In this document: positions 23,579 to 30,590 of the stretch, in pieces
How positions within the stretch are numbered: position 1 is the first letter of the stretch
How the letters are laid out: every line of letters starts with the position of its first letter
Assembly (NCBI GenBank): GCA_014239955.1
Contig: JAAZXW010000009.1
Span: 62,001-126,000, forward strand
From: Methanobacteriota archaeon
Lineage (GTDB): Archaea > Thermoplasmatota > Poseidoniia > Poseidoniales > Thalassarchaeaceae
DNA: 64,000 nt
Direction: 5' to 3'
Made by a program: the position numbers and the translations under genes
Notes under the pieces: generated by a model
What the model was told of the DNA's origin: nothing
What the model saw: only the letters and a program-made list of their open reading frames with translations
Databases searched by the model: none

Positions 23579-24874
23579 TTACCCGCGCAATTCCGTCAGG
23601 GCCTCGATGACCGAGGCCTGAGTGATGCGTTCGCCTCTTTCTCGAAGCATGGATGCCACCTCTTCGACCTCTTCGCCCTCTGCTCCAGCGGTAACCGCCA
23701 TGTTCCTGACATGCAGCTTCATGTGACCAGCCTGTATTCCTACTGTGGCGAGGGCCCGAAGAGCACCGAGGTTCTGCGCCAATCCCGATGCTGCAATCAC
23801 CTTCGCTAGCTCGTCCGCGCTCTCCACCCCTAGGAGTGCTACGTTCGTTTGTGCTGCAGGATGAACCCTAACTGCTCCTCCGACCAGTCCGACTGCCATA
23901 GGGAGCTCAATGGACCCGACTAGATTGCCATGCTCGTCCTTTGACCACTTGGTCAGTGAACCGTAAACCCTCTCATGGGAAGCGTAGCTGTGAGCTCCAG
24001 ATTCGATTGCCCTCCAATCCTGGCCACAGGCAAGGGCAACCGCTGAGATCGCGTTCATTATCCCCTTGTTGTGAGTGGTGGCCCTGAAGGGGTCCGCCTC
24101 AGCGAAGTGGTATGCCTGTATCACGCCGTCTATCACTTCCGAGCCCTGCTCCGCGTCCTGACCTTTGTCTGACATCTCCTCGGGGGTGAAGATTGCACTC
24201 ACCCTAGCGAGACGAAGGACGGCTAGGTTGCTGATTATCCTCAGTACCACCGTCCCACCAGAGACCTCCTCTACCCTTGGCGCGATCGTTTCAGCCATCG
24301 TGTTCACCGCATTGGCACCCATTGCATCCCTGCAGTCAACGTGGATGTGGACGATCACCATTGGCCCGGATCCAGTCTCAATCACCCTCGCAGTAAGATC
24401 CCGGCAACCACCTCCGAACTTCACCAGTATGGGGTCGACTTCATTGCAGCTCGAAACCAACTCGTCCTTGGAAGCGAGTATCGAGTCCCTAGCACCATCG
24501 GGGTCATCACAGTTGACAACTTGGATCTGACCAATCATTACGGGATCATCGTTGTCCGATTTGAAACCCCCGTTAGCCAAGCACCTCTTCGCCATATTAC
24601 TTGCTGCAGCAACTACGCTAGGCTCTTCGAGAACGAACGGAATCGCATAGTGAGACCCATCAATCACGAAGTTGGTTGCAATCCCAATGGGGAGGGAGTA
24701 AGTACCCACCACATTCTCGATCATCCGGTCTGCCGCCTCTTCGTCCAACTCACCTGTGTCGGCCCATGCCTCAACCTGGTCATTGCTTAATTCCGCAATC
24801 TCAGCGAGTAGCTTCCTTCTCTCTGAAACTGATAGTTTGTAGAACCCTCCGATACGACTGTTCTCTATTGGCAT
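23579..24874 (-). CDS. mvaA: HMG-CoA reductase, class II
   Basis: Reduces HMG-CoA to mevalonate or the reverse; here probably the committed step to archaeal lipids. 431 residues from ATG 24874 (the frame opens 17 codons upstream but family similarity starts at MPIENSRIGGFYKLS). Motifs in order: ENVVGTYSLPIGIATNF, IPFVLEEPSVVAAASN (catalytic Glu), THNKGIMNAISAVALA (Lys), GQDWRAIESGAHSY (Asp), and GHMKLHVRNMAV with the C-terminal catalytic His. These are diagnostic of the class II (Pseudomonas mevalonii-type) enzyme. It is divergent from the Orc-like AAA+ gene across the GTTAA array. Confidence 0.94.
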   Translation of the reverse strand: MPIENSRIGGFYKLSVSERRKLLAEIAELSNDQVEAWADTGELDEEAADRMIENVVGTYSLPIGIATNFVIDGSHYAIPFVLEEPSVVAAASNMAKRCLANGGFKSDNDDPVMIGQIQVVNCDDPDGARDSILASKDELVSSCNEVDPILVKFGGGCRDLTARVIETGSGPMVIVHIHVDCRDAMGANAVNTMAETIAPRVEEVSGGTVVLRIISNLAVLRLARVSAIFTPEEMSDKGQDAEQGSEVIDGVIQAYHFAEADPFRATTHNKGIMNAISAVALACGQDWRAIESGAHSYASHERVYGSLTKWSKDEHGNLVGSIELPMAVGLVGGAVRVHPAAQTNVALLGVESADELAKVIAASGLAQNLGALRALATVGIQAGHMKLHVRNMAVTAGAEGEEVEEVASMLRERGERITQASVIEALTELRG

Positions 24875-24943
24875 AGTACTCAAACTGGAGGCATGACAAC
24901 GGGTTTCTAACCTTTTTCGAGCCAATATCTACACGAAAAAAGC

Positions 24944-25001
24944 GTTAATTTGCCCGTTAACGCTTCGTTAACGCTTTGTTAACCCGTTAATAATGCGTTA
25001 A
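24944..25001. repeat. Helically phased GTTAA repeat array
   Basis: Six GTTAA words start at 24944, 24956, 24967, 24978, 24986 and 24997, i.e. spacings of 12, 11, 11, 8 and 11 bp. Three are the palindrome GTTAAC, and flanks are similar (CCCGTTAACGCTT, TTCGTTAACGCTT, TTTGTTAACCC, CCCGTTAAT). A seventh copy is at 25074. The array lies 70 bp before mvaA and 140 bp before the AAA+ gene. The near one-turn spacing suggests cooperative protein binding, as an operator or origin-like iteron. Confidence 0.7.
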
Positions 25002-25090
25002 TACAGCTAATAGGGGAAATAGCCACTGCACCAATAATTGCCAATTCCTATGTCCCGCATTTGTGAATTACCCGTTAATTGACACTCTGG

Positions 25091-25110
25091 TATGCGTGAG
25101 TATGCGTGAA
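25091..25110. repeat. Tandem 10-bp direct repeat TATGCGTGAR
   Basis: TATGCGTGAG followed directly by TATGCGTGAA, 32 bp upstream of the AAA+ gene start. It is close to one helical turn and could be part of the promoter or operator. Confidence 0.45.
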
Positions 25111-25141
25111 CATTAAGAATGCCAGACGATGCTGAGGCACT

Positions 25142-26947
25142 ATGGTGTTGAGCGATCTTTCTCCGTCAGATCTCCCTACGCTGCGTGGTAATCCATTCGA
25201 CTCTAGGCCGATTGAGAGAAACCGGGCCAGTGAGATAGTCGGAAGAGAGGATATTCTGATTAGGTGGAAGGAGCATATGCACTCTCAATCTCCAAGATTG
25301 ATTCTCCTTTCAGGGGAGAGGGGCTCAGGTAGGACATCTCTGATCAATGCAATTTCTTCTCAGACAGACAATCGTTTCGTTGGAACCTATTGGCATAGTG
25401 AGGACCCCCTAAATTGTGCCCTGGACGAGCTTGCAATAACCTTCTGCGGGCATGATATTCCTCCGAGCATGCACCAGAAAGTAGAGCGGATTGTGGAGAC
25501 TTTGGATACAGTTTCAGGACCCCTTCCACTAGTCGCTTTGGATTATCCATCACATGTCGATTTGTCCTCGTTCTTGTCTTTGATATTGCCCATATTGCAA
25601 CGACTTAGAGCTCTCGTCGTAGTCGCAGTTTCCAACTCTCAATTTACGTCTCTGGACGAGAACACAAGGGAGGTTTTCGATGAAATAGCCACCGTTGAGC
25701 CCTTCTCTCAGAAGCATATTCAGTTGCTTAGCGACCTCAGGATCCGCAGAATGTCGCCCGAGAGGTGGCACATCAATAGCGACTTGCTCGAGGCGATTAT
25801 GTCCAGAACGGGCGGCAATGCTAGATCAGTCATCGGTATCCTCAGGGATCTCGTAGACGAAAGGAGGGGGATCGGTTCCAAAGACACCCTTGCATCACTA
25901 AAAAGCTGGAATACGCCAAAAATACCCACAGTGCCAGAGAATCCTCCAGATGAGCTCCAGATTGAACCTTTGATCACCCCAATCAATGAATCGGAGATCG
26001 ATGTTGCCGAGGAAACCGAGGAAACCGGGGAATCTTGGCCCGAGGAGGGAGAAATAGAACCGGAAACCGAGGAGCAGGTGCTCGAAGATGATGACTGGGA
26101 CGTAGAACCAGATGACATGTGGCCAGATGAAGAAATAATCGAACCAGAATCTGTGAACGATGGCCCCGAGGAAGAAGAAACCGGTGAAACCACCGCTGAT
26201 AATCCAGAAAAGATCACCGGATGGCCAGCAGATGAGGGAACGTTTCTGTCAATGGACGAGGGTACAGAGCCCCCTAGTAGTGGCCAACCAAGGGGATTCT
26301 CAGGCCTAGTAAGCAGGTCACGCATAACAAATGACCAGATGCCCATGGGTCCTGACTACTCAACCCCTATACAGGAGCCAGAGATAAGAGAATTCCAGAA
26401 CCCCACTAGCGAGCCTCCAGTCCACGAAAGGAAACCACAGTTCATTGAGGAAAATCGCAAGTCGGTTAGTACGGAACCGACACCTATCGAGGAGAAACAA
26501 GTATTATTCTCCGAGGGAGAACTCTGGACTGTTGACTCGGATCTCGAGGAAACACTCCCAGAACTCTCCAACGAAGCCGAATATGAGCCAGAAGAGGTCT
26601 TCGAAGAACCCGAGCCCATCGAAATCATCGAGGACCAAACAAAAACCCCACAATTGGAAAGGAAAATAGTGGTCAAAGGTCCGAAATGGGTGTCAAAGCA
26701 AGTTGTCGACCAAAGCCACCTTGGAAGGATGAGCGACGCTGAGCGACTGGTAGTCTCCATAGCCTCTTCACGCGAGATATCCCCCTCCGACGTTGAGATC
26801 CAAGCACGCCTTGAGGTAGGCAGACCTCGCCTTTCTCAGATATACAATTCACTACACAAATCAGGTATCCTCGCAGTAAGGAAGGAAGGGAGAAGCAGGC
26901 TATTCAAGCTTAGTGAAGCTGCAGGTGACTTGCTAAGCGAGGGGTGA
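25142..26947 (+). CDS. Orc1/Cdc6-like AAA+ protein with altered Walker motifs, acidic linker and winged helix
   Basis: 601 residues. The N-terminus (NPFDSRPIERNRASEIVGRE) and the lid SRTGGNARSVIGILRDL (sensor-2 region, about 221-237) resemble Orc1/Cdc6. The P-loop is SGERGSGRTS, with Arg64 where Lys is expected, and Walker B reads VALDYPS (Asp134-Tyr135) without the catalytic Glu. Residues about 270-515 are a very acidic, low-complexity linker (runs of EETEE and PEEE). Residues about 530-600 form a winged helix: MSDAERLVVSIASS, then GRPRLSQIYNSLHKSGIL. Likely a DNA-binding regulator or initiator-like factor with little ATPase activity. The DUF357 gene follows at once. Confidence 0.75.
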   Translation: MVLSDLSPSDLPTLRGNPFDSRPIERNRASEIVGREDILIRWKEHMHSQSPRLILLSGERGSGRTSLINAISSQTDNRFVGTYWHSEDPLNCALDELAITFCGHDIPPSMHQKVERIVETLDTVSGPLPLVALDYPSHVDLSSFLSLILPILQRLRALVVVAVSNSQFTSLDENTREVFDEIATVEPFSQKHIQLLSDLRIRRMSPERWHINSDLLEAIMSRTGGNARSVIGILRDLVDERRGIGSKDTLASLKSWNTPKIPTVPENPPDELQIEPLITPINESEIDVAEETEETGESWPEEGEIEPETEEQVLEDDDWDVEPDDMWPDEEIIEPESVNDGPEEEETGETTADNPEKITGWPADEGTFLSMDEGTEPPSSGQPRGFSGLVSRSRITNDQMPMGPDYSTPIQEPEIREFQNPTSEPPVHERKPQFIEENRKSVSTEPTPIEEKQVLFSEGELWTVDSDLEETLPELSNEAEYEPEEVFEEPEPIEIIEDQTKTPQLERKIVVKGPKWVSKQVVDQSHLGRMSDAERLVVSIASSREISPSDVEIQARLEVGRPRLSQIYNSLHKSGILAVRKEGRSRLFKLSEAAGDLLSEG

Positions 26948-26949
26948 AA

Positions 26950-27270
26950 ATGTCCGATACAATCACGCTGGAGAGAATCGAGAGGTACCTCGCTCTCACT
27001 GCCGAGGCTAGATCAAAGGCAACTCCCTCAGCATCAAACAAACTTGACGAAGAGAGGCTCAATGAGATGCTTCGGATGTGTGACGATTATGCTGCCGATG
27101 CAAGGCATTTCGCTTCCGAAGGCGATTTAGTTAGTTCCTTCGGGGCGATCAACTATGCCCACGCATGGCTAGACGCCGCAGTCAGGATCGGACTGATGGA
27201 CGGTCATGGCGACGATAGACTGTTCACACTGCCTAGGGGCCAACCATTCGTAGAGAGGGTCCAGAAGTGA
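26950..27270 (+). CDS. DUF357 family protein
   Basis: 106 residues from ATG 26950, three bases after the AAA+ stop, with GGGGTGA as ribosome binding site overlapping that stop. The sequence follows the archaeal DUF357 pattern: LERIERYLALTAEA at the start, then DYAADARHFASEGDLVSSF and INYAHAWLDAAVRIGL. Helical, cytoplasmic, function unknown. In many archaea it is found near translation or replication genes. Tail-to-tail with the PIN gene, overlapping by 38 bases. Confidence 0.85.
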   Translation: MSDTITLERIERYLALTAEARSKATPSASNKLDEERLNEMLRMCDDYAADARHFASEGDLVSSFGAINYAHAWLDAAVRIGLMDGHGDDRLFTLPRGQPFVERVQK

Positions 27271-27592
27271 CTTCGATGTACGAACAGCCCCCTTCTACCA
27301 GTCTTCTCTTCAGTACCCTGTCAACAGTAAGGACTGGCCACCGGTTCTGGAGGGATAGGGCTAGTAGGGCGTCATCCGTGTGCCCGTCTCCCGAATCAAT
27401 TACCTCCGACCTGCCATAGAGGAGGTCTAGGAGGAGGCCACTGCGACTCTCTGCGAGGGAATCAAGCTCATCCATGACTCCTGCGGTGATCTTCAGACTC
27501 GCCTTCCCTACCACTTCGTTCAGTGAAATATCCAGGTTCAGTCCTGCATCAATCAGGGAAACCCAGCCACATGCGTCAACCAGGACTGCAAC
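27233..27592 (-). CDS. PIN-domain protein (archaeal Fcf1/VapC9-like)
   Basis: 119 residues from ATG 27592, seven bases after the aIF2-gamma stop; a longer form from ATG 27625 would overlap that gene by 26 bases. The four acidic PIN positions are visible: VLVDACGWVSL (Asp), GVMDELDSLAE (Glu), GHTDDALLALS (Asp) and VLTVDRVLKRRL (Asp). Single-strand RNA nuclease or rRNA-processing role is inferred from the fold. Linkage to aIF2-gamma and S6e is common in archaea and points to ribosome biogenesis rather than a toxin; no antitoxin gene is adjacent. Confidence 0.82.
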   Translation of the reverse strand, partial: VAVLVDACGWVSLIDAGLNLDISLNEVVGKASLKITAGVMDELDSLAESRSGLLLDLLYGRSEVIDSGDGHTDDALLALSLQNRWPVLTVDRVLKRRLVEGGCSYIEVTSGPSLRMVGP

Positions 27593-27599
27593 CATTGAA

Positions 27600-28835
27600 T
27601 CATCCCGAGATGGTTCCATGACCAATCAGTCGCCATCTGGTACCCACTCTCCTTGAGAGCGTAATCCTGCTTCCCTCCTTGGCGCAAATAGGTAGCCTGA
27701 GGCTAAGGGTCGCCTTCTTTCCCTTGATATTGGCGACGGTTCCAACACTGGTCGCTGTCGCGGAATTGACCATCAGCATCTCGTTTGGCTGCAGGGGTCT
27801 AATGACGCCTTCATCCTCGTTTCCCGAGATCATCTTGTCCAATAGTTGTAGATCGAGACCCAATTCTTCCCAGATTGGGGGCAACTCCCCTTCTCTGGCC
27901 ATTACTTGCCCCGAAAGGTCGTCTGCCTTGGTAGCCAGTGGGTCTAGAGGGGTGGAAATGCCGCAAAGACCACCTGCAAAGGCAGTCTTTAGGTCGGTAC
28001 CTCCGCCCTTTATTCCCTCGATTGTTGTCCTAAGGGGGTCCCAACGAGTCTTGTTTCCTTCCTGTATCCTTCTTCCAGGTGCAATGAGTATGTTGTCCCC
28101 GACGTTGAATGACCCTTCCACGATACTGCCTCCGATCACTCCTCCTTTGATTTCAGACGGCCTCGATCCTGGACGATTTACGTCAAAGGATCTTGCGACG
28201 TACATCAAACCCTCCTCATCTTCTGTCCTGTCTGGGGTGGGGATGGTTTCCTCTATGGCCTCGATTAGGACATCTAGATTCACGTCGTGATGAGCCGAGA
28301 CTGGGATGATTGGGGCATCTTCTGCGATAGTCCCGCTGATAAATTCCTGAATTTCCTTGTAGGACTCCATTGCCCTCTCCTTACTGACAATGTCGATCTT
28401 GTTCTGCACTACTACAATGTTCTCGATTCCCGCTATCTCAAGGGCTGCTAGATGCTCCCTAGTTTGTGGCTGAGGGCATTTCTCCGTGGCAGCTACCAAT
28501 AGTAGTGCGCCATCCATGATGGAAGCCCCGGAAATCATCACCGCCATCAGTGTCTCGTGCCCCGGGGCATCGACGAAGGATACGACCCTAAGCAGATCCC
28601 CCTTCCCCTTCTCGCCCTCGGGGTGCTTCCCCTTGGAGTAGTGTTCTCCATCAGAAGTTACGTGGAATGAAGTGTCTGCATATCCCAACTTGATGCTGAT
28701 ACCCCTCTTTCGTTCTTCCGAATGGGTATCGGTCCAAGTTCCAGATAGGGCTTGGGTTAGAGTGGTCTTCCCGTGATCAACATGACCGACCATGCCGATA
28801 TTGACTTCGGGCTGCTTGCTTTTTGCTCTGGTCAG
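27600..28835 (-). CDS. eif2g: Translation initiation factor aIF2 subunit gamma
   Basis: GTPase that carries initiator Met-tRNA to the small ribosomal subunit. About 411 residues. G1 GHVDHGKTTL, G2 region with RGISIKLGYAD, G3 DAPGHETLM, G4 VQNKIDIV and G5 SAHHD are intact, followed by two beta-barrel domains. The first ATG (28793) would remove the opening strand PEVNIG that the fold needs. The frame continues upstream to CTG at 28835, which has GGGGTGAT five bases before it, and no ATG, GTG or TTG lies between. I therefore place the start at CTG. Confidence 0.93.
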   Translation of the reverse strand: MTRAKSKQPEVNIGMVGHVDHGKTTLTQALSGTWTDTHSEERKRGISIKLGYADTSFHVTSDGEHYSKGKHPEGEKGKGDLLRVVSFVDAPGHETLMAVMISGASIMDGALLLVAATEKCPQPQTREHLAALEIAGIENIVVVQNKIDIVSKERAMESYKEIQEFISGTIAEDAPIIPVSAHHDVNLDVLIEAIEETIPTPDRTEDEEGLMYVARSFDVNRPGSRPSEIKGGVIGGSIVEGSFNVGDNILIAPGRRIQEGNKTRWDPLRTTIEGIKGGGTDLKTAFAGGLCGISTPLDPLATKADDLSGQVMAREGELPPIWEELGLDLQLLDKMISGNEDEGVIRPLQPNEMLMVNSATATSVGTVANIKGKKATLSLRLPICAKEGSRITLSRRVGTRWRLIGHGTISG

Positions 28836-29411: not shown

Positions 29412-30590
29412 TTACCTCTCGAGAAGTCCCTTCTCAATCCTTCTCCCGATCACCGCAGGTACAGAGTTTGGCATGGTGATGTACTGGGTCCTTCCCCTTC
29501 CTTGGTTGGAACTGGAGGACCTACTTACAATCAACCCCTCGGATTCGAGATGCTTCATGTATTTCCAGAATGTCGTGTAGCCTCTTGGACTCTCACTGTT
29601 TTCCTCACAGACTAGCTCGTACAACTTCCTGGCATCTCCGCTGGAGACTTCCTCTGTTTTCTTCAATCTCCGGCAAATACCAAGGAGGACCAACTTCTGG
29701 TGCAGGTTCAGGCCGTCAACCTGATTCGGCTCTACTGATGCGGATCGAATACTGCTTGGAATGACATCTGCTTCAATGACCTCTCCCCTGCCTGCCATTT
29801 CGGCATGTCTGATTGCACCCTCTAGAATCTCGATTGCCATCCTTGCATCCCCGCCCGAATCTTCTGCGAATGCCCCAATCTTTTCCAGAACCTCTTTGCT
29901 TACGGAACCGGGTCTGCATGACGCCTCGTAACGCTGACTCGCGATTCCTTCGAGGTCGCTTGCCACGTAAGGGCTCATTTGGAGGATGTTGTTCTCTCCT
30001 AAACGAGACTTGATTGCCTTCTCGAAGAGGGTGAATAGGGAATCTTCCTGGCTCACCATGATTAGGGATATGGAACCCTCACCTTCCTTATCCTCATCTA
30101 TTCTGAGGAGCTTGTATATCAAGTCGGAGTTGTCCCTTCTAACTAGCACATCAACTTCGTCTAGGATTAGCAGGAGGTGCTTATCGTGGGTACGGAGATT
30201 GCGTCTAACGCTCTGGATAACTTCTCCAGAGCTGAATCCTCGTTCAGGATGGCCAGAATCTAGAGACAATGCGATTTGCTGAAGGACTTGGGATGCCGAA
30301 GGATGGTTCCTGCAATTTACATGAGCGATAGAAAATTTCCTTTTTCCTTCCAGTTTTGATGCAATGTCCATGCAGAATCGACGGGTGAGAACCGTCTTTC
30401 CAGAGCCAACATTGCCCGTAACAACGGCTCTACAGCTAACGTTGTGATTCTCTATTCCAAAGAACATCGATGCCAATTCGCTTAGTTCGTCCTTCCTACC
30501 AACCAGCTCGGAAGGAGTCCAATCGTAGGACAAAGGCTCCTTGGAGATCAGAACCTTGCCTGCTCCTATCCTGTCGAGGTAGTCCGCCAT
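29412..30590 (-). CDS. cdc6: Orc1/Cdc6 replication initiator
   Basis: Origin-binding AAA+ ATPase that loads MCM. 392 residues. Walker A GNVGSGKT (about 59-66), Walker B LLLILDEVDVL, sensor-1 near LIMVSQED, and lid GGDARMAIEILEGAIRHAE. The C-terminal winged helix covers about 300-385 (LHQKLVLLGICRRL to YTTFWKYMKHLESEGLI). All catalytic positions are intact, in contrast to the Orc-like protein encoded 2.5 kb away. The upstream intergenic region (30591-30725) is not strongly AT-rich and shows no clear ORB element. Confidence 0.95.
   Translation of the reverse strand: MADYLDRIGAGKVLISKEPLSYDWTPSELVGRKDELSELASMFFGIENHNVSCRAVVTGNVGSGKTVLTRRFCMDIASKLEGKRKFSIAHVNCRNHPSASQVLQQIALSLDSGHPERGFSSGEVIQSVRRNLRTHDKHLLLILDEVDVLVRRDNSDLIYKLLRIDEDKEGEGSISLIMVSQEDSLFTLFEKAIKSRLGENNILQMSPYVASDLEGIASQRYEASCRPGSVSKEVLEKIGAFAEDSGGDARMAIEILEGAIRHAEMAGRGEVIEADVIPSSIRSASVEPNQVDGLNLHQKLVLLGICRRLKKTEEVSSGDARKLYELVCEENSESPRGYTTFWKYMKHLESEGLIVSRSSSSNQGRGRTQYITMPNSVPAVIGRRIEKGLLER

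Follow-up and report, generated by a model that had tools for sequence, protein, structure and literature searches.

Upstream of the gene for AAAwH, a protein with an Orc-like AAA+ domain, an acidic linker and a winged helix, genomes from either family of Ca. Poseidoniales, the order of Marine Group II archaea, carry a cluster of short, helically phased DNA repeats. We propose that this array is probably a cooperative cis-regulatory operator of AAAwH, with AAAwH itself the most likely protein to bind it. For the abundant, uncultured archaea of Marine Group II, a literature search returned no described operator, replication origin or skew report. The locus combines a defined DNA site, a candidate binder and an essentially single target across the order, which makes it testable in vitro.

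Sequence of the repeat array

We analyzed a 64-kb stretch of DNA (hereafter, the window) that is part of a 170-kb contig (C22) in a 1.28-Mb genome. In the intergenic region between mvaA and the AAAwH gene, the word GTTAA starts at 24944, 24956, 24967, 24978, 24986 and 24997, and again at 25074. The first six words fill 58 bp with spacings of 12, 11, 11, 8 and 11 bp, three of them belong to GTTAAC palindromes (24956, 24967 and 24978), and the seventh lies 77 bp past the sixth, all exactly as the initial annotation had described; in 100 first-order Markov resamplings of the window, the maximum was 2 GTTAA words per 58 bp. Comparison over relatives gave a full site of AAWGCGTTAAY, which occurs in both orientations. 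All four exact GCGTTAA heptamers in the window lie inside the array. The heptamer also appeared to be depleted outside the array, although the mononucleotide expectation used for that comparison is an unfair one. Two degenerate copies that the initial annotation had not listed, GCGTGAG at 25094 and GCGTGAA at 25104, are followed by a TATA-like box. In the spacer between the array and site 7 (25004–25070), short ACTG- and CGGATTT-like motifs are common to several genera. The sites are given below with the evidence for each in parentheses.

24942–24948, plus strand: site 1, GCGTTAA (sequence, resampling)
24957–24963, minus strand: site 2, GCGTTAA (sequence, resampling)
24968–24974, minus strand: site 3, GCGTTAA (sequence, resampling)
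24979–24985, minus strand: site 4, TTAACCC on the plus strand, one mismatch (sequence, resampling)
24984–24990, plus strand: site 5, CCGTTAA, forming with site 4 a conserved 8-bp inverted pair (sequence, spacing statistics)
24995–25001, plus strand: site 6, GCGTTAA (sequence, resampling)
25072–25078, plus strand: site 7, CCGTTAA, 77 bp from site 6 and in helical phase (sequence, phase analysis)
25094–25100, plus strand: site 8, GCGTGAG, degenerate, promoter-proximal (sequence, site comparison)
25104–25110, plus strand: site 9, GCGTGAA, degenerate, at the BRE position and in phase (sequence, phase, promoter distances)

Gene neighborhood and promoters

The array lies between divergent genes, in a conserved block that also encodes a true Orc1/Cdc6 protein:

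23579–24874, minus strand: mvaA, HMG-CoA reductase, divergent neighbor (Pfam HMG-CoA_red, E 1e-106)
24905–24919, minus strand: GGTTAGAA preceded by an A-run, putative core promoter element of mvaA (sequence comparison; predicted function)
25113–25120, plus strand: TTAAGAAT, TATA-like box 29 bp upstream of the AAAwH ATG (modal distance; predicted function)
25142–26947, plus strand: AAAwH, with Orc-like AAA+ domain, acidic linker and winged helix (domain, profile and structure comparisons)
26944–27270, plus strand: DUF357 protein; in this genome its gene overlaps that of AAAwH (Pfam PF04010)
27233–27625, minus strand: PIN-like protein (Pfam PF18477)
27600–28793, minus strand: aIF2 gamma-like GTPase, in the conserved block (translation and synteny; named from sequence)
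29412–30590, minus strand: Orc1/Cdc6 paralog B (Orc1-B), a true Orc1/Cdc6 with Cdc6_C (Pfam Cdc6_C, 4e-16; TIGR02928, 2.5e-66)

The mvaA start was placed at the ATG at 24874 on the minus strand, and a longer TTG-initiated open reading frame was rejected. Genus g1 conserves the putative mvaA promoter element, and g11 does so in part. Where the compared regions could be scored, the distance from the TATA-like box to the AAAwH ATG had a mode of 29–30 bp, and the promoter-proximal array copy stood at −38/−39 relative to this ATG in most of them. The 29-bp distance in the window implies a near-leaderless AAAwH transcript.

Both families share the order mvaA, array, AAAwH, DUF357, PIN, aIF2 gamma, Orc1/Cdc6; genus g10 is a local exception, where Orc1/Cdc6 adjoins DUF357 and the final genes have a different order. 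In the window, the start of Orc1-B (30590) lies ~5.6 kb from the array, within the block but not adjacent to it. Family f2 and genera g4, g9 and g10 have about 1 kb of additional sequence between AAAwH and DUF357, which g1 lacks; the regions with extra sequence are L128–L140, L049–L052, L066, L068–L072 and L142 (from genome G148), in the last of which it reads as a propeller-like repeat protein.

Conservation across Ca. Poseidoniales

A cluster of the words stands upstream of AAAwH in the examined regions of genera g1–g11 and of family f2. AAAwH was found in 227 of 244 genomes, with every one of the 22 sampled genera of the order represented; in family f3 of the same class it was essentially absent, with only three matches (E 1e-4 to 1e-3). 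Between the families of the order, AAAwH is only about 22 to 32% identical, yet the array is kept. In relatives that keep the gene order, the repeats were neither absent nor unphased, and this order-wide conservation strongly supports the functional tie to the downstream AAA+/winged-helix gene that the initial annotation had suggested.

Number, order and orientation of the words vary by genus. They are of mixed orientation in g1; in g3, all words or nearly all of them are direct. Both g10 and several f2 members have an inverted pair (TTAACGCGTTAA) at the center, and fewer words are present in g2, g4 and some members of f2. Within a genome, the array is essentially confined to one locus. By hand count, 86 of the 88 matches to a three-word pattern (words 10–12 bp apart) in 148 family genomes fell at the array locus, and about 40 of the 43 family matches to a two-word pattern fell on the AAAwH contig.

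Viral spread of the array was considered and rejected: a direct-pair pattern occurred in 9 viral contigs, which is roughly chance level, a tandem-pair pattern had 0 matches, and the stretches of viral contigs that we read held no comparable array. We likewise rejected recoding as the reading of an in-frame TGA in one AAAwH gene (L079, genome G133), where a stop near the C-terminus is crossed by the alignment.

Helical phasing and anchoring of the array

We compared array geometry in 72 regions from 68 genomes, four of which were fetched twice. Site density was 7.4 per 330 bp in these regions and 0.86 in shuffled sequence. The modal site spacing was 11 bp, larger gaps clustered at 32, 77–78 and 109 bp, and in 44 of 54 cases the 8-bp spacing separated a minus site from a plus site. 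With a 1-bp offset allowed for site polarity, sites within a region shared a common phase at 10.8 bp per turn, with a mean resultant of 0.875 against a maximized null with mean 0.377 and maximum 0.400, values to be read as effect sizes and not as P values because the 72 regions are phylogenetically related and not independent trials. The outlying sites kept the phase of the cluster (R 0.72, n = 139). The initial annotation's proposal that spacing near one helical turn places the sites on one face of the DNA, made for a single locus, therefore extends across the order.

Helical phase survives the changes in orientation and copy number between genera. Inverted copies in the array score as terminator-like stems, as they would in a transcribed RNA structure or a terminator, but persistence of the phase while word number and orientation vary indicates a constraint at the DNA level. 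In addition, the flanking genes diverge, so that no known transcript should end at the array, and there was no Rfam match; we regard an RNA-level function as extremely improbable.

The distance from the last array site to the AAAwH start is nearly constant (mean 138 bp, sd 15, mode 142–145), whereas that from mvaA to the first site is variable (mean 110 bp, sd 62, range 50–388), so that it is the AAAwH promoter to which the array is anchored. Repeated sites thus stand at a fixed distance in the promoter region of the gene for their putative binder. The same measurements bear on the idea that the array is an operator of mvaA, and hence of isoprenoid lipid synthesis, used by some other regulator. 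The divergent arrangement and kept synteny would suit such a role, as would the array of genus g1, which starts ~25 bp away from the putative promoter element of mvaA, on the upstream side, but the 50–388 bp range on the mvaA side, set against a nearly fixed AAAwH side, makes it very unlikely.

The AAAwH protein and its proposed mode of action

AAAwH consists of an AAA+ domain (residues 10–250), predicted with pLDDT mostly >90, an acidic disordered linker (259–512) of ~250 residues with 76 D/E and 15 K/R, and an ArsR/MarR-like winged helix (~523–600). Foldseek placed the AAA+ part among Orc, Cdc6, RFC, MuB, TnsC and RuvB. In nearly all members, Walker A reads GxxGSGRT, with Arg replacing Lys, and Walker B is without the usual Glu; these changes make ATP hydrolysis doubtful. 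The winged helix matches ArsR/BigR regulators weakly (E 6e-6). Identity to family f2 is 46% in the winged helix, 32% in the AAA+ domain and 17% in the linker, and conservation highest in the winged helix is expected if the DNA site is also conserved.

Profile searches of AAAwH returned no Cdc6_C match and only weak AAA_16 and ArsR-like matches, and its TIGR02928 score was 11.7 bits, with a cut-off of 181.3. On these grounds (no Cdc6_C, TIGR02928 below cut-off) we rejected AAAwH as a member of the Orc1/Cdc6 initiator family; it is an order-specific protein that is Orc-like in its AAA+ fold only. The label of an Orc-like gene in the initial annotation is apt for that fold alone; the real Orc1/Cdc6 gene of the window is at 29412–30590.

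In the operator that we propose, each AAWGCGTTAAY word would be one predicted winged-helix site. The six sites about 11 bp apart, with their one 8-bp inverted pair, all face one side of the DNA, and in-phase outliers ~77 and 109 bp away put the last copies at the BRE and TATA box of the AAAwH promoter. AAA+ domains could pack side by side along this face, or bridge the array and the promoter, and occupancy might respond steeply to AAAwH concentration, perhaps also to nucleotide state, thereby controlling AAAwH transcription. The position of the last sites, directly against the TATA box, makes repression more probable than activation. Although we infer that AAAwH is the ligand, Orc1-B, encoded in the same conserved block, could take that place.

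On the most economical account, the array is a cooperative, phased operator through which AAAwH regulates itself, with DnaA boxes in the dnaA promoter and Orc1-2 at its own promoter as the closest analogs; both the site and the protein family would be new. DnaA-box arrays in the dnaA promoter autoregulate the bacterial AAA+ initiator (PMC8203912). Like them, the AAAwH array places several short sites before the gene of what would be its own AAA+ DNA-binding protein, with possible coupling to nucleotide state in both systems (PMC8203912). Unlike DnaA boxes, it has another site, a winged helix instead of DnaA domain IV, an archaeal promoter and strict helical phasing, and AAAwH differs from DnaA, an established initiator, in its degenerate Walker motifs. 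Sulfolobus Orc1-2 is a genuine Orc1/Cdc6 that acts not as an initiator but as a transcription regulator, binding its own promoter and an ANTTTC element at several promoters (PMC9738581). AAAwH resembles it as an archaeal protein with AAA+ and winged helix domains that would bind its own promoter (PMC9738581), and departs from it in being without Cdc6_C, in its 250-residue acidic linker and in having essentially one array per genome.

Winged-helix domains and phased repeats also occur together in DNA segregation. TubR/tubC and other winged-helix iteron centromeres combine an ArsR-like winged helix with iterons about one helical turn apart and also have operator function. AAAwH and its array share the ArsR-like winged helix and the spacing of about one turn, the array is one site per chromosome with short in-phase iterons, and the AAA+ domain also matches the filament-forming MuB and TnsC; AAAwH could on this basis be a partition-type, iteron-binding, autoregulating protein and the array a centromere or segregation site. 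However, no partner filament gene, tubulin- or actin-like, and no ParA-like ATPase was identified in the block (DUF357, PIN-like, aIF2 gamma, Orc1-B), the Walker motifs of AAAwH are degenerate, and the array, unlike tubC, is chromosomal with mixed site orientation. We consider a segregation role quite unlikely.

Candidate replication origin elements of the order

The initial annotation had offered autoregulation or origin function as alternatives. Anchoring of the array to the AAAwH start and promoter favors autoregulation; origin function is disfavored, although several features would suit it. One target per genome fits an origin or a centromere as well as an operator, the array is deeply conserved beside a gene for an Orc-fold AAA+ protein whose AAA+ domain matches Orc and Cdc6 structures, and the block includes Orc1-B, the upstream region of which showed no repeat array when compared. 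For DnaA, arrays serving as both oriC and promoter exist. The array might accordingly be a replication origin that works without ORBs, either the main one or a second, and that AAAwH and/or Orc1-B would open; we judge this unlikely. Similarly improbable is that the whole order uses it as an ORB-independent origin of the chromosome, or as an origin and centromere in one, which AAAwH and/or Orc1-B would recognize and an assembly in helical phase would open. Were the array an origin or centromere, it would offer a way to study chromosome replication and to estimate growth rates in Marine Group II.

Several observations weigh against origin function, in addition to the anchoring of the array to a promoter. 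Skew in C22, 400 kb of G065:C1 and 353 kb of G050:C8 was weak throughout and did not switch at the array; in the closed genome G148, whose first half was sampled in twenty 20-kb pieces, it was also weak and made no clear turn there. The spacer is only mildly AT-rich (GC 0.42). Iteron origins of the plasmid type have direct repeats in one orientation, whereas the array has both orientations in most genera and is mostly direct in g3.

Archaeal ORB origins have CTTCCAGTGGAAACGAAAGGGGT (PMC4153887). The array resembles them in having repeated intergenic sites in a block with an orc1/cdc6 gene (PMC4153887), but it contains no ORB or G-string, and the ORBs of the order are elsewhere. In 60 genomes, a search for canonical ORBs as TTCCAnnGGAAAnnAAGGGGT with one mismatch allowed gave ~75 matches, whereas the control gave 1, and none of the ORB matches listed fell at an array of known place. 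Two Cdc6_C genes, Orc1-A and Orc1-B, are present in nearly all genomes with good coverage, and in ten genomes from both families an ORB lies near Orc1-A:

G011:C16, G014:C27, G046:C35, G047:C20, G050:C8: ORB 4.2–5.4 kb from Orc1-A
G111:C55, G149:C28, G150:C9, G161:C96, G168:C7: ORB 4.2–5.4 kb from Orc1-A

This ORB is likely a true oriC element of Marine Group II. Inverted ORB pairs, 147–163 bp apart, sit on contigs other than the Orc1-A contig and are possibly a second origin:

G173:C43, 3056–3239: inverted ORB pair
G152:C17, 15099–15282: inverted ORB pair
G161:C9, 25873–26054: inverted ORB pair
G169:C44, 11967–12134: inverted ORB pair

Base composition also varies along C22: from 30 to 95 kb of the contig (about positions 1–33000 of the window), GC is higher (~0.51–0.55) and GC skew is mostly nearer zero, with flanks at about −0.1.
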